Shown piece after piece: positions 21,170 to 28,160 of a stretch of 64,000 nt of DNA. The stretch is from NCBI RefSeq assembly GCF_038719015.1, contig NZ_CP152276.1, forward strand, positions 4,419,501 to 4,483,500, read 5' to 3'. Positions within the stretch are counted from its first letter, which is position 1, and every line of letters starts with the position of its first letter. The position numbers and the translations under genes are program-made. Below the pieces are notes generated by a model. The model was not told the DNA's origin, made no database searches, and worked only from the letters and a program-made list of their open reading frames with translations. This DNA comes from Nguyenibacter vanlangensis. Its GTDB lineage: Bacteria > Pseudomonadota > Alphaproteobacteria > Acetobacterales > Acetobacteraceae.

Positions 21170-21210
21170 CGGCCCGGCCGGCCCACATGTGCACCCACAT
21201 GTACGACGGA

Positions 21211-21252
21211 GCGACGATTTGGGGAGCGACGATTTGGGCAGCGACGATTTGG
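21211..21252. repeat. Three tandem GCGACGATTTGG units
   Basis: GCGACGATTTGG occurs at 21211, 21226 and 21241 with a 15-base period. A degenerate copy follows around 21256. The repeats fill the gap between the aldo/keto reductase and the Hyf-like operon and may lie in its promoter or leader region. No gene is seen here. Confidence 0.75.
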
Positions 21253-21320: not shown

Positions 21321-23171
21321 TTGCCGGCGGCCGGTGATTCAGGGACTGGTCGCATCCTTCCGCTCGTTCTTCTGTCCGCCCTCGCCGGGCTGCTGCTCGC
21401 CGGCCTCGCCGCCGACGCACCCGGCGCCCGCCCCGCCCCTGCCGTGCTGCTGCGCGCGGGATGGGCCGCCGTGCTGCTGCCCGCGCTGCTCATGTCCTGC
21501 CTGCCGTCCCTGGCCGCCCCATCGCGCATGCTGCCGGCCGTCCTGGCCCTGCCGCATGTCGATGCGCTGTCCCTGCCGTTCCTGCTCGTGCTCGCCGCCA
21601 TCGGCCTGGCCACCGCGGCGCCCGGCACGAAACCCGACACCGCCCTGGCCTGCGCCGGGCTGACGGTGGCGACCGGCCAGCCGCTGCTCTGCTGCCTCGG
21701 CGCCGCGTCCCTGGCCGCGCTGCTGCGCCCCGCGCCGAAGGCCGCCCCCTGCATCCTCGCCATCGCCCTGGCCGCCGCGCTCCTGCCTTCCGCCTGGCGC
21801 GACGCGGCGCTTCCCCTGCCGGTCCTGGTTGCCGCCGCCGGCCTGATGGGCCTGTCGCTCCTGCCCTTCGGCGGGGCCCGCCACACGGAGCCGGCCACCC
21901 CGCGCGACCTCGCCGGGCTCGTCGCGGGCGCCTGTTTCGCGGTGCGCATGCTGGCCGACTGGCCATCCACGCCGCTTGCCACGCCGCTCGCCGCGCCGCC
22001 CGCCGCATTCGGGGGCGCCCTGACCGCCGCCGCGGGGCTGCTGTTCGCCCTGGCGGGCGGCCTGCGCGCGCTCGCGGCCCCCGATGCGGCGCGCGCGCTC
22101 GGCGGCATGCTGGCCGCCTGGGGCGGGCTGGCCCTGGCCCTGGCCGGGCTGGCGGCGGTGGGCCGCGCGGACGATCTGCCGCTGCTGGCGCTGGGGGCGT
22201 TCCGCGCCCTGGCGCTGCTGCTGGGCGGCGTCGGCATGGCGCTGCTGGCCGCCATCCTGCTGCTGCGCGACATCGGCCAGGCCGCCGGCACGCTGGCCCT
22301 GGATCGCGCTGGCGGGCTGGCCGGGCTGATGCCGCGCGCGGCCGGCCTGCTCGCCCTGTCGCTGGCCGGCGCCTGCGCGTTGCCGCCGCTGGCCGGCTTC
22401 GCCGCCTTCTGGCTGCTGCTGCATGCCGTGCTGGCCCTGCCGCGCGCCGGGGTGCTGGCGGGGGAAATCCCGCCGCTGCTGGCGCTGTGCGGCGCGGGCG
22501 CGGCGTCCGGCCTGCTGCTGCTCGCGGCACTCCGCCTCGGGACGGGCCTGCTGCTCGGCCGGCCGCGCACCCCGCGCGTCGCCGGCGCGGCCGACCCGCC
22601 GTCGGCCCGGCTGCATGTCCCGCTGGCCTGTCTCGGCGTCGCGGGGGCAATCGGGCTGCTGCCCGGCGCCTGGCTGTGGCTGACCCGCGCCGCCGGCTGG
22701 CAGGCCGCCGGATTGTCGGGCGCGGCGATTCCGGTCGGCGCGCAACCCGGACTGTTCGCCCTGGCCGCGCCGGGCGGCGGCGGCGCTTTCAATCCGGCCG
22801 GGCTGGCCCTGCTGCTGGCCGCCGCTGCCGGGCTGGTCCGCCTGTTGGCGCACCGCGCCGGCGCGGCGCCGTCCCGCCCCGCGCCCGCCTGGGCCGAGGG
22901 CGCCCCGCCGGCCCCGCCCTGGATGCCGTTCGGCGACCCGGCCACCCAGGCCGGTCCGGCTTTGTTCGCCGGCCGGCTGGACGGCGTGCTGGGCGGCGCG
23001 CGGGCCACTCGGGCTGCGGCCTGGCGCGCGGCCCGCGCGGCGCGGCGCACGGGCCGGACCGGGCGGCTTCTCGCCGACCGCCTGTCCGATCTCGCGGCGC
23101 GCCACGCCATGAAGCTGGTCCTGCTCTGGTTCGCGCTCGCGGCCCTGCTGCATCTCTGGACCCGCCCATGA
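21321..23171 (+). CDS. HyfB-like membrane subunit (NuoL/antiporter family), degenerate
   Basis: About 616 very hydrophobic residues with roughly 14 predicted membrane segments. It resembles the hydrogenase-4 subunit B/proton-conducting transporter family, mainly through late blocks: ALPPLAGFAAFWLLLHAVL near residue 355 and a soluble stretch PAPAWAEGAPPAPPWMPF near 525, which matches the post-helix loop of HyfB. The expected His/Lys helix-7 region reads GGARHTEPATPRDLAGL with arginine instead of lysine further on, and the FKALLFL-like block reads GAFRALALLLGG. The start is probably TTG at 21321. It is the first gene of a six-gene Hyf-like operon. Confidence 0.75.
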   Translation: MPAAGDSGTGRILPLVLLSALAGLLLAGLAADAPGARPAPAVLLRAGWAAVLLPALLMSCLPSLAAPSRMLPAVLALPHVDALSLPFLLVLAAIGLATAAPGTKPDTALACAGLTVATGQPLLCCLGAASLAALLRPAPKAAPCILAIALAAALLPSAWRDAALPLPVLVAAAGLMGLSLLPFGGARHTEPATPRDLAGLVAGACFAVRMLADWPSTPLATPLAAPPAAFGGALTAAAGLLFALAGGLRALAAPDAARALGGMLAAWGGLALALAGLAAVGRADDLPLLALGAFRALALLLGGVGMALLAAILLLRDIGQAAGTLALDRAGGLAGLMPRAAGLLALSLAGACALPPLAGFAAFWLLLHAVLALPRAGVLAGEIPPLLALCGAGAASGLLLLAALRLGTGLLLGRPRTPRVAGAADPPSARLHVPLACLGVAGAIGLLPGAWLWLTRAAGWQAAGLSGAAIPVGAQPGLFALAAPGGGGAFNPAGLALLLAAAAGLVRLLAHRAGAAPSRPAPAWAEGAPPAPPWMPFGDPATQAGPALFAGRLDGVLGGARATRAAAWRAARAARRTGRTGRLLADRLSDLAARHAMKLVLLWFALAALLHLWTRP

Positions 23172-23209
23172 TCACCCATTCATGATCACCCATTCATGAT
23201 CGCCTATTC
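23168..23209. repeat. Three 14-base copies spanning the hyfB stop and hyfC start
   Basis: ATGATCACCCATTC occurs twice (23168-23195), followed by ATGATCGCCTATTC (23196-23209). The first copy contains the hyfB-like stop (ATGA) and the third contains the hyfC-like ATG. This looks like an ancestral 4-base stop/start overlap separated by duplication (inference). Confidence 0.85.
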
Positions 23210-24182
23210 CGGATGGATCGGGGGGCCGCTGGGCGGCCTGTTGCTGGCGCTGCACCTGGCGCTCATGCTGGCCCTGGCGCCGCTCCTGCGCGGCGCGATC
23301 GACGCCGGCGCCGCCCGGCTCGGCGGGGCGGCGCCCCCGCCGGTGCTGCTGCGCTGGTGCCTGATCCTGGCGCAGGCCAGGCGGCAGGGGCTGCGCGCGG
23401 CGATTGGATGCGCCACGGGCGGGGCCGACCTGCCGCCGGGCCTGGCGCTCGCCGCCGCCCTGGCTGCCTGCGCGCTGGTGCCGTCCTTCGCGCTCGGCCT
23501 GCCGTCCGCCGGCCTGTCGGACCTGCTGGCGCTGGTCACGCTGCTGGGCGCCGCGCGGCTGGCCGCCCTGCTGCCCGGCCTGGCCGCGGGCGTGGCGGCT
23601 TCCGGCCGGCAGGCGGTCGGCGGCATCGTCGCCCTGGCCCTGGCGCAAACCGTCTTTCCCCTGCTGCTCGCCGTCGCCATGCTGGCCACCGGCAGCACCA
23701 CCCTCGACGCCATGCTCACCCGCCTGCACGACCCCGAGCTGGCCGGATCGCGCACGCCGCTGGTCCTGGCGGCCCTGTCCCTGCTGCTCGCCGGCTCCGA
23801 CGCGCCGGCCCCCGGCAGCCCGCCCTTCGGGCTATCGCCCAACCCGGCCCCCGACCCGCCGGCCGACGCCGGCGGGCGCGACCGCGCGGCCCTGGACCTG
23901 GCATCGGACCTGTCGCTGCTGGCCTGGCTCACCCTGGCGGGCGACCTGGCCTGGCCCGCCGCGCTCGCCCTGCCCGGCGAGGTCCTGGGGGGCGTCCCGG
24001 CGGCCCTGCCGGGCGCCATCCTCGCCTGGCTCGCCCGCACCGCGCTGCTGGCGGGCGCGCTCGTCGCGGCGCGGGCGCTGGTCCTGGCGCCGGATCGGGC
24101 CGCGCGGGCGCGGCTGCTGCTCGCCCTGCTGCTCGCCCTGCTCGCGGTCGTGGTGCTCTTCGCCGGGCGGGATTTCGGCTGA
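23196..24182 (+). CDS. HyfC-like membrane subunit (NuoH family)
   Basis: 328 residues with about eight membrane helices. It is related to hydrogenase-4 subunit C and NuoH, which connect the peripheral electron-transfer arm to the membrane arm. The beginning, GGPLGGLLLALHLALMLALA, fits HyfC. The middle has ALVTLLGAARLAALLPGLAAG, and the loop with SDAPAPGSPPFG followed by an acidic stretch and DLASDLSLLAWLTLAGDLAW resembles the quinone-facing loop of the family. Acidic residues normally expected in the loops are few. The 3' end overlaps the next gene in a TGATG arrangement. Confidence 0.75.
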   Translation: MIAYSGWIGGPLGGLLLALHLALMLALAPLLRGAIDAGAARLGGAAPPPVLLRWCLILAQARRQGLRAAIGCATGGADLPPGLALAAALAACALVPSFALGLPSAGLSDLLALVTLLGAARLAALLPGLAAGVAASGRQAVGGIVALALAQTVFPLLLAVAMLATGSTTLDAMLTRLHDPELAGSRTPLVLAALSLLLAGSDAPAPGSPPFGLSPNPAPDPPADAGGRDRAALDLASDLSLLAWLTLAGDLAWPAALALPGEVLGGVPAALPGAILAWLARTALLAGALVAARALVLAPDRAARARLLLALLLALLAVVVLFAGRDFG

Positions 24183-24739
24183 TGCTCCCGCTCCTGCTCG
24201 GCGCCCTGATCGTCCTTTCCGTCCTCCTGTCCGGGATGCGCGGCGCCGCCCTGCTGTGGCATGGCGGCGTCACGGCGTCGGCCCTGCTCGCCGCCGCGTG
24301 GCAGGCGCCCCGGCCGGTGCTGCCCTGCCTCGCCGCGCTGTGCGTGGCGGCGTCCATCCTGCCGCTCTCCTGGGGCCTGGCGCGGCTCGAGGACGATCCC
24401 CCCCGCCCGGGCGAGCGCACGCTCTGCCTCGCCGGCGGACTCGCCTGCGCCGTCCTGGCCGTGGTCGCGGTGCCGCGCGGCCTGCTCGACGCCGCCGGCC
24501 GGCCGGCCCTGGTCGCGGCGCTGGCCGCCATCCTGTGCGGCGTGCTGGCGGCCGCCCTGCGCCGCTCGGTGGTCGGGCAATGCGCCGGCCTGGCCGCCGC
24601 CCTGGACGGGCTGACGCTGCTGGCCGGCCTGTCCGGCCGGGGCGCGCTGCTGCTGGGGGTGGCGGCCCTGCAGGCGGCGCTGATGCTGGTCGCCTTCGTC
24701 TGCCTGCGGCGCATCGCCTGGGCCAGGGGGACGGAATGA
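24182..24739 (+). CDS. HyfE-like membrane subunit
   Basis: 185 residues, hydrophobic, with about six helices. By position and size it matches hydrogenase-4 component E (HyfE, related to NuoK plus extra helices). LPLLLGALIVLSVLLSG opens the protein, and the C-terminal helix LLGVAALQAALMLVAFVCLRR fits the family end. The start ATG overlaps the hyfC-like stop. It ends in GGAATGA, the first unit of a tandem repeat that leads to the next gene. Confidence 0.68.
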   Translation: MLPLLLGALIVLSVLLSGMRGAALLWHGGVTASALLAAAWQAPRPVLPCLAALCVAASILPLSWGLARLEDDPPRPGERTLCLAGGLACAVLAVVAVPRGLLDAAGRPALVAALAAILCGVLAAALRRSVVGQCAGLAAALDGLTLLAGLSGRGALLLGVAALQAALMLVAFVCLRRIAWARGTE

Positions 24740-24796
24740 GGGGGCGGAATGAGGGGAGCGGAATGAGGGGCGCAGGAATGAGGCACCCGGAATGAA
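24733..24796. repeat. Five GGAATGA-containing tandem units between hyfE and hyfF
   Basis: GGAATGA recurs five times with variable spacers (GGGGGC, GGGAGC, GGGGCGCA, GGCACCC). The first copy carries the stop of the hyfE-like gene and the last carries the ATG of the hyfF-like gene. Each copy contains an ATGA stop/start overlap, so the gap looks like an expanded overlap junction. Confidence 0.85.
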
Positions 24797-26114
24797 CGCC
24801 GCGCTTTCGGCCTCGCCGGTGCTGCTGCCGCTGGCCCTGTGCTGGCCCTTCCTGTCGATGGGCGCGCTGGCGGCCTGTTCGCCCGCCTCGGCGCGGCCCG
24901 CCGCGATCGGCCTGTCCGCCATCGGCCTGTTGCTCGCCGTCCTCGCGGCCGGCGCCGGCGCCGCGTGGCCCGCCACCCCGTTCGCGGCGCCCCCCGGCCT
25001 GCTGCGCCTCCTGCCGCCCCTGCCGCTGCTGGCGCTGTTCCTGTCCACCCTGCTGCCGCCCGCCGCCACCCCGCGCCGCGACGCCCACAACCAGGCCGCC
25101 CGCAACCAGGCCGCCCTGACCCAGGGACTGGCCGGCGGATCGGCCCTGGCCGCCACCTGCGCCGATCCGCTGTCCGGCGCGGTGGCGGTCGGCGGGGTCG
25201 CCATGCTGGCGGCGCTGGCCATCGCCACCACGCGCGGCGCGGCGCGGCTGGGCTGGGACATGTTCCGGCTCAGCCTGTCGGGCATCCTGCTCGCGGTGCC
25301 GGGCGCCGTGCTGCTGGCCGCGGCGCCCGGCAGCGCCGGACGGCTGGACGGGCTGGGCGGCGTGCTGCTGGCAACGGGGCTGGGCGTCGTCGCCGGCCTG
25401 GGGCCCGCCACCCCGGTCATGCTCGCGGCCGAGGACGCCCCCGCCGCCATGGCGCTGGCCCCCGTCATGACCGCGATCCCCGTGCTGCGCCACCTCGCCG
25501 TCGCGCCGGATGGGCGCGGCACGATGCTGCTCGGCCTGGCCACGATCTGGCTGGCGGCGCTGCCCATGCGCCGCGCCACCGCCCGCCGGCGCGGCCGCCT
25601 GGCGCTGGGCGGCCTGATCGGGCTGGCCGCCATCGCCGCCGGCGCCACCGCCAATGCCGCCGCCACTGCCACCGCCACTGCCACCAGCAGAATCGCGGAC
25701 GGGGCCGGCGCGGCGGGCCTGGCCGCTCTGCTGCTCTCCGCCGCCCTGCTGGCGCCGCTGGCCGACCGGCCGGCCGCCTCCGCCGGCCATACGGCCCCGG
25801 CCGGCTTTCCGGCCCGGGCCTTGCGCGGCGCGCTGGCGTTCCATCCACCCTTCCTGCCGTTCGGCGGATTGCTGCTGACCCTGGCGGCCCTGACCGACGC
25901 CGCCCCCCTGCTGCTCGCCCCCCTGGTCCTCGGCCTGCTCGCCGGCCGCGCGCCGCCCCCCTCCGCCGCTACGCCCGCCGACATTCCGGCCGGCCCCCCG
26001 CCCGGCTCCCCGCCCGACCCCCCACTCGGCGCAGCCGGTCCCCTGGCCGTCGTCCTGCTGCTGGCCGCCATGACGGCGCTGATCGCCTGGTTTCTGCCCA
26101 GGACCTTGCAATGA
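24792..26114 (+). CDS. HyfF-like membrane subunit (NuoM/N family), degenerate
   Basis: 440 residues with about 11-12 hydrophobic helices. Position and overall shape match hydrogenase-4 subunit F. The region that should read like the NuoM-type HxWLPDAHxEAPxPVSALLSG block is LGPATPVMLAAEDAPAAMAL, keeping the AEDAP core but lacking the histidine and following lysine. The late block FHPPFLPFGGLLLTLAAL may correspond to the PPxxGFxSE segment without its glutamate. An Ala/Thr-rich stretch near residue 285 arises from simple repeats. The 3' end overlaps the large-subunit gene by 4 bases. Confidence 0.68.
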   Translation: MNAALSASPVLLPLALCWPFLSMGALAACSPASARPAAIGLSAIGLLLAVLAAGAGAAWPATPFAAPPGLLRLLPPLPLLALFLSTLLPPAATPRRDAHNQAARNQAALTQGLAGGSALAATCADPLSGAVAVGGVAMLAALAIATTRGAARLGWDMFRLSLSGILLAVPGAVLLAAAPGSAGRLDGLGGVLLATGLGVVAGLGPATPVMLAAEDAPAAMALAPVMTAIPVLRHLAVAPDGRGTMLLGLATIWLAALPMRRATARRRGRLALGGLIGLAAIAAGATANAAATATATATSRIADGAGAAGLAALLLSAALLAPLADRPAASAGHTAPAGFPARALRGALAFHPPFLPFGGLLLTLAALTDAAPLLLAPLVLGLLAGRAPPPSAATPADIPAGPPPGSPPDPPLGAAGPLAVVLLLAAMTALIAWFLPRTLQ

Positions 26115-27643
26115 CCGCCCCCGCTCCGCCGTCCGCCGTCGCCCTGATCCGCGCCGGCGAGCCCGAGGCCGGCGCCTGGCGCTTCCGGCTCACGGAGGAT
26201 GAATGGCGCGACCTGGCGCTCGCCCTGCGGCATGATCCGCTGCCCTTCGTCGGGCTGTGGGCCGACGGGCAGGACGTCCACGCCCTGTTCCTCGAAGCCG
26301 GCGAATGGCCGCTGGTGGCCAGCATCGCACCCAGCCAGGGGCGCTATCTCGCCCTGTCCCCCGTCCGTCCGGCCGCCGCGCTGCCCGAACGCTGCGTGCA
26401 GGATCTGTGGGGTTTCGCCGCGATGGAGGCCCGCGATACCGGCCCCTGGCTCGATCACGGGCTCTGGACGGCGACCTGGCCGCTCAGCGCGCGCCCCGGC
26501 CCCGTCTCCTGGCCACCCGAGCCGCCGGACTTCGCCGCGACCCGCGTCCCGTCCGGCCGGACGGTCCTCGGCGCCGGCCCGGCCGACGGCGCGCATCACG
26601 CCCCCGCCCATCTCCGGCTGGCCCTCGGATCGGGACCGGCCGCCTCCAGCCGGATCGGCGCCGCGGAATGGCGCCTGGGCTACGCCCATCGCGGCGTCGC
26701 CGCCCGGATGCGGGGGCTGGACGGCCCGGCCGCCTGCCGCCTCGCGGGGCGGGTCGCAGCCGGCGCGTCGGTCGCGCATCAATCCGCCTTCTGCCGCGCG
26801 CTGGAGGTCGCGACCCGGACCGAAATCGGTCCCGACACCCATGACGGCCGCGTCATGCTGGCCGAACTCGAACGGATCGCCACCGCCCTGCACGACGTGG
26901 CCAGGACCGTCCACGCCGCCGGGGGCGCGGCGCCGGCGGCGGAATGCGAACGCCTGCGCGAAACCCTGCTGGACCTGTATGGCCGCCTGTTCGGCCACCG
27001 GCTGCTGATGGACCTGGTCCACCCCCAGGGGATCGGGCCCGAGGACGCGGCCACCCTCGCCGCCGTTGCCCGCCGGACCGCCGAACAGGTCGAATCCGGC
27101 CTGCCGGCCATCCGCCGCGCCCTGTCCTGGCCCGGGCTCGCCGCCCGCATGCAGGGGCGCGGCGTCATGACCGAACAGGCCGCCCGCGCGCTGGGCATCG
27201 GCGGCCCCGCCGGCCGCGCCTCGGGACGCGAGGACGACCTGCGCCGCCTGGCCCACCTGGTACCCGGCTATCGCCGCGACTGGCTGGATAGCGGCGTCCG
27301 CCGGGCCGGCGACGTCGCGGCGCGGGTCGATCTGCGCCTGGCCGAAATCGCCGGCAGCGCGCGCATCCTGCACGCCGCCGCGCGGGATTTCTCTCCCGGC
27401 GCGCAGCCCCCCGGCACGCCGCAGCGCCATGACGGCGAGGGCGTGGGCTGCGCCGAGGGCCCGCGCGGCGCGGTCTGGTACTGGCTCCGCGTCGCCGGCG
27501 GCACCATCCTGCACGCCGCCATCCGCGATCCGGCCCTGGCCCAGGTCGCGGCGCTCGACCACGTCCTGCCCGGCGCCGATCCCGACGACGCGGCGATGAT
27601 CGTCCGCTCATTCGGCCTGTCCGCCGCCGGGGCGGACCAGTAA
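26111..27643 (+). CDS. HyfG-like large subunit without NiFe ligands (NuoC-NuoD-like fusion)
   Basis: 510 residues. The N-terminal third resembles the NuoC-like domain of HyfG/HycE, ending in ERCVQDLWGFAAMEARDTG. The rest matches the NuoD/NiFe large-subunit fold, with ELERIATALHDVARTVHAAG near residue 260 and LLMDLVHPQGIGPED near 300. Active hydrogenases carry a CxxC near the start of this fold (CGICG in HycE) and a DPCxxC near the end. Here the regions read AAGASVAHQSAFC and VRSFGLSAAGAD, so the CxxC motifs are gone. It is therefore not a NiFe hydrogenase and resembles Ehr-type or complex-I-like subunits. Confidence 0.82.
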   Translation: MTAPAPPSAVALIRAGEPEAGAWRFRLTEDEWRDLALALRHDPLPFVGLWADGQDVHALFLEAGEWPLVASIAPSQGRYLALSPVRPAAALPERCVQDLWGFAAMEARDTGPWLDHGLWTATWPLSARPGPVSWPPEPPDFAATRVPSGRTVLGAGPADGAHHAPAHLRLALGSGPAASSRIGAAEWRLGYAHRGVAARMRGLDGPAACRLAGRVAAGASVAHQSAFCRALEVATRTEIGPDTHDGRVMLAELERIATALHDVARTVHAAGGAAPAAECERLRETLLDLYGRLFGHRLLMDLVHPQGIGPEDAATLAAVARRTAEQVESGLPAIRRALSWPGLAARMQGRGVMTEQAARALGIGGPAGRASGREDDLRRLAHLVPGYRRDWLDSGVRRAGDVAARVDLRLAEIAGSARILHAAARDFSPGAQPPGTPQRHDGEGVGCAEGPRGAVWYWLRVAGGTILHAAIRDPALAQVAALDHVLPGADPDDAAMIVRSFGLSAAGADQ

Positions 27644-27657
27644 GTGGACCAGTAAGT
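27634..27657. repeat. Duplicated terminal codons and stop of the hyfG-like gene
   Basis: GGACCAGTAAGT occurs twice in tandem. The first copy holds the last codons and the TAA of the HyfG-like gene; the second repeats them in the short gap before the HyfI-like gene. Confidence 0.85.
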
Positions 27658-27674
27658 TAAAGAAAGGAGCGACC

Positions 27675-28160
27675 ATGGCCCTGATGCGCGCGATCCTGGC
27701 CGCCCTGGCCGGCGGCCATGCCGCCCGGCGCCCCGACCTGCCTCGACTGGCGGCGCCGCGCGGGCGCCCGCTCGCACTGTTCCATGTCGAAACCGGCGGC
27801 TGCGAGGGCTGCGCGCTCGAAATCGCCGCGCTCGACAGCGCCGCCTACGCCCTGGCGCCGACCGGCATCCGCTTCGTCGCCACGCCGCGCTTGGCCGACA
27901 TCCTGCTGGTGACTGGCCCGCTGACCCGCGCCATGGCCCCGGTGCTCGAATCCGCCTGGCACGCCATGCCCGATCCCCGCGCCCTGGTCGCGGTCGGCGC
28001 CTGCGCGATCGACGGCGGACCGTTCGCGGAAAATTACGCGGTGCTCGGCGGGCTGCAGGACCGCACGACGATCGACCTCGCCATTCCGGGCTGCCCGCCA
28101 TCCCCCGCCGCCATCATGGCCGGCCTGGCCGCCATCCTCACCCCCGCCGTACCACGCTAG
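27675..28160 (+). CDS. HyfI-like small subunit (NuoB family) with intact Fe-S cysteines
   Basis: 161 residues. It matches the NuoB/HyfI small subunit, which holds the N2-type proximal 4Fe-4S cluster. All four expected cysteines are visible: two in FHVETGGCEGCALE (near residue 45), one in AVGACAIDGGPF (near 110) and one in IPGCPPSP (near 140). A GAAAGGAGC ribosome-binding site precedes the ATG. The retained cluster beside a large subunit lacking NiFe ligands argues for a redox-active, non-hydrogenase complex (inference). The gene ends just before a strong terminator. Confidence 0.85.
   Translation: MALMRAILAALAGGHAARRPDLPRLAAPRGRPLALFHVETGGCEGCALEIAALDSAAYALAPTGIRFVATPRLADILLVTGPLTRAMAPVLESAWHAMPDPRALVAVGACAIDGGPFAENYAVLGGLQDRTTIDLAIPGCPPSPAAIMAGLAAILTPAVPR

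Follow-up and report, generated by a model that had tools for sequence, protein, structure and literature searches.

The hydrogenase-4-like operon at positions 21321-28160 of a 64,000-nucleotide window of the Nguyenibacter vanlangensis genome (the window being the whole stretch of DNA analysed, G000:C1:4419501-4483500 of a single-contig genome of 4.75 Mb) encodes, judged by its sequences, an energy-converting hydrogenase-related (Ehr) complex, by definition a relative of complex I and of the group 4 hydrogenases. Besides the NiFe ligands it has lost nearly all mappable proton-path residues of the membrane arm along with the proton donor once present in the active site, a second loss that an earlier sequence-only reading of the same DNA had missed. 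A known kind of complex (Ehr) would thus be met here in a new, decoupled variant, designated N-type. We think it fairly probable that the N-type is a membrane-anchored redox relay or sensor with one cluster that does not pump protons; the relay or sensor role taken on its own is a conjecture to which we give somewhat less than an even chance.

Composition of the operon

Six open reading frames (ORFs) on the + strand follow each other in the order B-C-E-F-G-I with intergenic gaps of 24, -1, 52, -4 and 31 nt. Subunit B (21321-23171), a HyfB/HycC-like protein with the fold of NuoL-type antiporters, is read from a TTG codon, its true start being uncertain. Subunit C (23196-24182) was assigned as HyfC/HycD/NuoH-like by profile comparison, structural model and key residues, and subunit F (24792-26114; 440 amino acids) is a HyfF-like protein, again of the antiporter fold. 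Subunit E (24182-24739), the weakest assignment, is taken as HyfE-like from its position in the operon and a profile match (E 8e-6). The large subunit (26111-27643), similar to HyfG, HycE and NuoC-NuoD, was recognised by its match to HycE and its pocket pattern, and the small subunit (27675-28160) is similar to HyfI, HycG and NuoB. Short tandem duplications (12-15 bp, two to four copies) lie at 21208-21252 before the gene for B and at the borders B/C (23167-23209), E/F (24725-24795) and G/I (27634-27657), some of them spanning stop or start codons.

Pfam assigned the large subunit to PF00346 (1.8e-20) and the small one to PF01058 (1.9e-27), and gave no match at E ≤ 1 for the four membrane subunits. 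Profile-profile comparison (hhalign) with HyfB, HyfC, HyfF and HyfE of E. coli and alphaproteobacteria returned probabilities of 99.9, 99.8, 97.8 and 83.6% for B, C, F and E, respectively. AlphaFold models, which cover subunits B and C, reached a predicted local distance difference test score (pLDDT) of 82.2 and a predicted template modelling score (pTM) of 0.83 for B, with HycC (7z0t_C) as the top PDB match (template modelling score, TM, 0.65/0.66), and a pLDDT of 87.0 and pTM of 0.88 for C, with HycD (7z0s_D) as the top match (TM 0.74/0.79). The large-subunit profile found HycE (7z0s_E) as the best PDB match (E 8e-70), followed by Mbh and complex I.

Ehr complexes are described, in the portions available to us of PMC6349859, PMC10284858, PMC10432482 and PMC7894505, as hydrogenase-related, devoid of NiFe ligands and of unknown function. 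The window operon combines NuoL-, NuoH- and HyfE-like membrane subunits in one operon (profiles, the B and C models, and the 83.6% match for HyfE), a group 4 hydrogenase-like large subunit with none of the four ligand cysteines, and a NuoB-like small subunit with the cysteines of the proximal [4Fe-4S] cluster. The large-subunit tree is made of alphaproteobacterial rows and E. coli, and Ehr membership with respect to Geobacter, Nitrospira and archaea is by their published descriptions.

The former active site

In the alignment with HycE the ligand cysteines C241, C244, C531 and C534 are replaced by A, A, S and G; CxxC is absent throughout the large subunit, and the 510-codon match contains no internal stop. 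None of the 60 fully read Ehr rows has a NiFe cysteine at any of the four positions, and L054 (genome G247) has none at the two that are readable; L054 comes from a close relative of Gluconacetobacter diazotrophicus, its large-subunit match ends at query residue 373, and it is possibly a broken copy. The cluster positions of the window small subunit are occupied by C43, C46, C110 and C140.

An active hydrogenase-4 or formate hydrogenlyase, to which gene order and subunit homology would point, is already refuted by the missing ligands in the 60 full rows, and we regard it as next to impossible. The ferredoxin motif CxxCxxCxxxC does not occur in the six frames of the 64-kb window, and, as regards formate dehydrogenase, the four genomic matches to molybdopterin oxidoreductases all lie outside it. 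With 25 E. coli Hyf, Hyc and Nuo proteins as queries, a tblastn search matched nothing in the window but the small subunit; as it also missed the diverged B to G, its silence on HyfA and HyfH is weak and the motif scan is the better evidence. The same search, a weak test in which NuoG was not among the queries, gave no match to NuoE, NuoF or NuoI in the window, and in 23 related loci the top matches to the E. coli set included neither HyfA/HyfH nor a formate dehydrogenase partner. Further against an active hydrogenase at this locus, a separate NiFe hydrogenase-like large subunit with both cysteine pairs (RLCGICPVSH, DPCLSCATH) is encoded elsewhere in the genome, at G000:C1:1525445-1526917 (L196:7446-8918), with neighbours that resemble a small subunit, a HoxU-like protein and HypB. 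The sequence-only reading had described six tightly spaced genes in HyfB-C-E-F-G-I order, a large subunit without CxxC at the NiFe positions, a small subunit with four cluster cysteines, and an Ehr-like relative of complex I rather than a hydrogenase, with no HyfA/HyfH-type ferredoxin or formate dehydrogenase in the window; all of these points hold up.

The pocket around the former NiFe site separates two kinds of Ehr, the N-type of the window and relatives which retain the proton path, called here pump-type (P-type). At HycE positions 193, 241, 283, 284, 395, 437, 478, 529 and 534 the 36 pump-type rows read E, S, N (35/36), H, R, E, R, N and G, so this pocket is nearly invariant and free of metal ligands. 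The window protein reads AAATARERGSG at HycE E193, C241, C244, S283, H284, R395, E437, R478, D529, C531 and C534, a pattern in which the former active-site proton donor is gone. The N-type pocket mainly retains H284 (37/42), R395 (39/42) and E437 (38/42), and position 529 is G in 32 of 42 rows. All four small-subunit cysteines are present in 33 of 34 pump-type rows and in 32 of the 35 N-type rows for which a small subunit was found, none being recognised in the other 7 of 42.

Loss of the proton path in the membrane arm

Twenty-four key residues (10 in B, 7 in C and 7 in F), chosen as belonging to the proton path of formate hydrogenlyase (PMC9474812) or as conserved in relatives, were scored over 81 loci, 36 of them pump-type and 41 belonging to the window clade. 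Pump-type loci retain 19-24 of 24 keys in 36 of 36 cases, the three lowest (L044, L096, L184) having B as a partial ORF. L175 and L179 had been candidates for this class and were dropped, which brought the count from 38 to 36; both group with E. coli HycE/HyfG on long branches, and L179 has NiFe cysteines. The profile recognised B in 28, C in 41 and F in 35 of the 41 N-type loci, so that 10-18 keys could be mapped in each, with six keys outside the mapping and B or F unrecognised in some. On these mappable keys 10 loci retain none, 27 retain one and 4 retain two (35 of 583 readable cells), and the window itself retains 1 of 18, with 0/8 in B, 1/6 in C (an Arg) and 0/4 in F. The 13 loci in which B was unrecognised have a hydrophobic ORF at its place in 12 cases, with none seen in L180; the ORF at the B position in L048, L049, L051, L125-L128, L172, L174 and L176-L178 measures 444-556 amino acids as compared with 616. 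L043 (genome G011) was scored as neither type, the stretch fetched containing only the large and small subunit genes without adjoining membrane genes; a HyfC-like gene (62% to L042) lies at G011:C2:263658, and this arrangement is either a split Ehr operon or an assembly effect.

Residue by residue, 25-28 of the 28 rows from pump-type loci and E. coli keep HyfB K221, H228, K252, E310, H344, H348, K352 and E407, and a like charge is found in 0-1 of 26 N-type rows. HyfF K232, H239 and E406 are retained in none of 27 N-type rows and E143 in 4; in HyfC the E-channel acids survive at E138 in 1, E146 in 8, E196 in 3 and E213 in 3 of 32 rows, and R116 is basic in 14 of 32. What stays in B is R209 (like charge in 26/26) and P355, P356 and P448 (26/26 each). 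Among columns conserved in the pump-type, the 34 with K, E or H are retained at 4.6% against 34% for the 314 others (D 36%, R 31%; permutation p 5e-5), so the loss is selective. Across the N-type rows of B, C and F, conservation of 75% or more is reached by none of the K, E or H columns; the other ionisable columns that attain it are D81, R209, R405, R419 and R579 in B, D109 in C and R159 in F.

We infer that the N-type does not pump protons, because the E-channel glutamates are mostly gone, no conserved K, E or H column stands in their place, and changes of E138 or of E199/E201/E203 in E. coli HycD lowered hydrogen production by 98-99% in the part of PMC9474812 available to us. Ion translocation, suspected in the literature for the Ehr family and not strictly defining it, has no counterpart in the window as judged by residues. 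A redox-driven ion pump, the role usually proposed for Ehr, is favoured by gene content and fold and by the P-type relatives with an intact path and a nearly invariant pocket, in which pumping is plausible. In the window lineage, with 0-2 of 10-18 mappable path residues left and no K, E or H column conserved at the 75% level, pumping seems unlikely, and as an explanation of this operon we rate it very low.

Misalignment is made unlikely as the source of these losses by the profile-profile mapping, by composition (F of the window contains a single Glu and not one Lys among its 440 amino acids) and by a second case, L181/L189, whose B subunits score 374 and 381 bits against the pump-type profile, yet only 2 and 0 of 10 B keys and 0 of 7 F keys are left. 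Drift in GC content was rejected as a cause: the N-type loci L038, L039, L122 and L123, at 35-37% GC, are also stripped, and complex I of the window's genome has retained its own residues. In both complex I clusters of this genome the residues tested are all kept in NuoL (EKK), NuoN (EKKK) and NuoH (EEDEEE), as they are in NuoM (EKKE) of the second. Four pump-type subunits tested matched PF00361 or PF00146 at 1e-35 to 1e-54, and of the six antiporter subunits that PF00361 detects genome-wide none lies in the window. One complex I cluster, at G000:C1:225466-228257 (L165), has NuoL and NuoN but, as far as it was read, lacks a NuoM between the two; a gene resembling NuoM (36% to the E. coli protein) lies at G000:C1:3999442 (L163).

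Phylogeny and coexisting copies

In a tree of 83 large subunits the window clade comprises 41 rows with support of 99/99. L181, from one of two genomes of genus g47, is nested in the pump-type side, and the stripped state then needs two changes, only 6% of bootstrap trees needing one; the channel was probably lost twice, as far as the tree can tell. L181 and L189, from the two g47 genomes, retain 2 and 0 of 10 keys in B, 4 of 7 each in C and 0 of 7 in F, and their pocket shows E193 changed to Q and N529 to S, so pocket and channel losses coincide in this independent case as they do in the N-type. Both g47 genomes also hold a pump-type copy with 24/24 keys (L182, L190), and genome G062 combines a pump-type copy (L167) with a low-scoring stripped one (L168). 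The reverse reading, a gain of the path, would need the opposite root and is not favoured: the E. coli outgroup falls inside the pump-type side, on a long branch.

Distribution, gene neighbourhood and selection

A large-subunit match at ≤1e-54 was found in 264 of 297 Acetobacteraceae genomes, one of NuoD strength only in 32 and none in one; five best candidates were scored per genome with pump-type and stripped forms not told apart, the 264 include fragments and also at least two genomes, G029 and G058, whose match falls beside E. coli HycE/HyfG and not with Ehr. Outside the family, 23 of the 288 genomes searched in the class have a large subunit at 1e-120 or better. The nearest named relative of the window large subunit is that of Gluconacetobacter diazotrophicus PA1 5 (68% identity), a strain that carries the operon as well (L004), followed by further Gluconacetobacter and then by Komagataeibacter, Novacetimonas, Acetobacter and Lichenicola proteins at 40-46%. 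Of 24 genomes that have the large subunit, drawn from four genera, 23 are without NuoH; the channel was read in four small genomes among these 23 (L048, L051, L126, L127) and is stripped in all four, with C, E, F and G present in 4/4, I in 3/4 and a hydrophobic ORF of 444-497 amino acids at the B position in 4/4. A pump-type Ehr operon, with B cut by the contig end, is present in the 0.9 Mb genome G448 (L104; 34% GC in the stretch read), in which nothing matched NuoD at 1e-25; this genome may have no complex I-like machine other than Ehr.

The window lineage has a conserved setting of genes which we take, from their sequences rather than from a search, to be pepA, holC, pssA and psd, the pssA-like and psd-like clusters each occurring in 12 of 22 loci. 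Around 30 pump-type or related loci every neighbour cluster beyond the six genes occurs in at most six.

The ratio of nonsynonymous to synonymous substitution rates (dN/dS, Nei-Gojobori) is below 1 in every computable comparison, by which the complex is under purifying selection. The ratios refer to profile-matched stretches, some reaching past gene ends (E has 245 codons compared with 185 in the window) and some values for E and C including overlapping frames; the pair L048/L125 was saturated, and one or two genes were not comparable in four other pairs. In L036/L114, probably Acetobacter by our inference, dN/dS is 0.01-0.05, equal to the 0.01-0.04 of its neighbour genes, and the low-GC pair L038/L039 gave 0.05-0.11. 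Values were 0.06-0.30 among three genomes of the window's genus, 0.20-0.58 for the window and L004, 0.17-0.47 for L116/L117 and L035/L118 (neighbour genes 0.06-0.15), and 0.11-0.39 for the four comparable genes of genus g100. The neighbours pssA, psd and pepA gave 0.00-0.26 over seven pairs where found.

Raised dN/dS in the window's genus and two other pairs, together with fast divergence, would suit a slowly decaying relic of an Ehr operon, as would the large-subunit match cut short in G247, the 32 of 297 family genomes without a match of Ehr large-subunit strength and the one without any. A relic agrees poorly with dN/dS as low as that of neighbours in L036/L114, with the nearly complete gene sets of the four NuoH-less loci, and with losses concentrated in K, E and H columns, and we consider it improbable. 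A non-expressed relic had been named in the sequence-only reading as one of the findings that would overturn it; dN/dS below 1 and wide retention make this less probable. The term redox-linked used there stands in part: one [4Fe-4S] site is intact in the window, and one related genus, g100, has lost it.

Interpretation

The N-type would descend from a pump-competent Ehr (P-type), with all six genes retained in their arrangement and one [4Fe-4S] cluster still present in most of the species examined. Without the proton donor of the pocket, the E-channel and the relays of the antiporter subunits, it would be unlikely to move protons by any known route. It may relay or sense electrons that pass between a soluble partner on one side and the quinone pool, or some other protein, on the other, and conserve no energy in doing so.

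Several observations weigh against this decoupled relay or sensor. Six of the 24 keys (B 142 and 235; C 218; F 343, 347 and 351) do not map on N-type profiles, and the scores refer to mapped keys only. E193 is retained in 4 of 42 N-type rows (L040, L120, L121, L124) and R478 in 22. The HycC changes K239A and K336A retained H2 production, and some proton paths of formate hydrogenlyase tolerate mutation, in the part of PMC9474812 seen; lost antiporter residues alone are therefore no proof of lost coupling, and the loss of the HycD-type E-channel is the stronger argument. No conserved partner gene of the Ehr operon was found in the window lineage or in the pump-type and related loci. Constraint in the window's genus (0.06-0.58) is weaker than in its neighbours (0.00-0.26), as also in L116/L117 and L035/L118, which tells against a strong role there. 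In genus g100 (L040, L120, L121) the cluster positions read G, C, G, S in 3/3 genomes, so three of four cysteines are gone, an argument against a function in electron transfer that all members would share. Its genes for B, C, G and I are open; the profiles did not recognise E and F, although BLAST picked up a weakly matching F-like ORF in L040. If the g100 complex works, it would have to do so without the known cluster.

On account of g100 the main rival is a pseudoenzyme scaffold without redox chemistry, a membrane platform or an assembly or regulatory partner in which the cluster, where present, is structural; we hold it unlikely, though somewhat less so than a relic. It would accommodate GCGS in place of CCCC under dN/dS of 0.11-0.39, the absence of the pocket proton donor and canopy residues from most of the N-type, and the fact that structural Pro, Gly and Trp columns are retained most. 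Four cysteines in 32 of 35 N-type small subunits seem to exceed what a purely structural role would require, and a general helper of complex I is opposed by the persistence of the large subunit where NuoH is absent. A bolder proposal extends the decoupled reading: a complex I fold that turned non-pumping and, in the extreme of g100, lost its known redox cofactor may have been selected for a new, possibly structural or signalling membrane function, decoupled at least twice and once beside a pump-type copy. We regard it as speculative, with a chance only slightly better than that of the scaffold.

The complex I superfamily is usually discussed as ion-translocating, and here a lineage under selection has lost almost all of the ionisable path that can be mapped. 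It retains the set of genes and the folds that were modelled, and it has pump-type relatives whose pocket hardly varies. The natural series of losses, NiFe, then pump, then iron-sulfur, could test which parts serve catalysis, coupling or mere assembly, and pump-type and stripped copies in single genomes offer a clean comparison pair and a handle on Ehr function.

Comparison with known systems

No literature on Ehr or its channel loss in Acetobacteraceae was found among the titles and abstract openings listed by searches of open-licence PMC text, some of which listed only part of their matches. The Ehr complexes of Geobacter sulfurreducens (GSU0739-45), comammox Nitrospira and ammonia-oxidising archaea, as far as the available portions of the papers describe them, have the same NiFe-less large and small subunits and NuoL- and HyfE-like membrane subunits; the window lineage differs in being also without proton-path residues, whereas those papers presume ion translocation or leave it open. 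Geobacter Ehr subunits were more abundant on formate than in hydrogen-containing conditions, according to the part of PMC7894505 consulted.

E. coli hydrogenase-4, i.e. formate hydrogenlyase-2 (HyfABCDEFGHIJ), shares the order and homology of HyfB, C, E, F, G and I, but the window operon lacks HyfA, HyfD, HyfH, the NiFe ligands and the channel residues. Among solved structures, those of E. coli formate hydrogenlyase-1 (7z0s, 7z0t) come nearest to the large subunit, B and C; HycE there has CCCC, and HycD and HycC have a proton path, both of which are gone here. Complex I (NuoB, NuoD, NuoH, NuoL/M/N) has the same PF00346 large and PF01058 small subunits with one [4Fe-4S] site near the former NiFe site. 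The window operon is without an NADH module or NuoI and its channel residues are gone, whereas complex I of the same genome keeps them.

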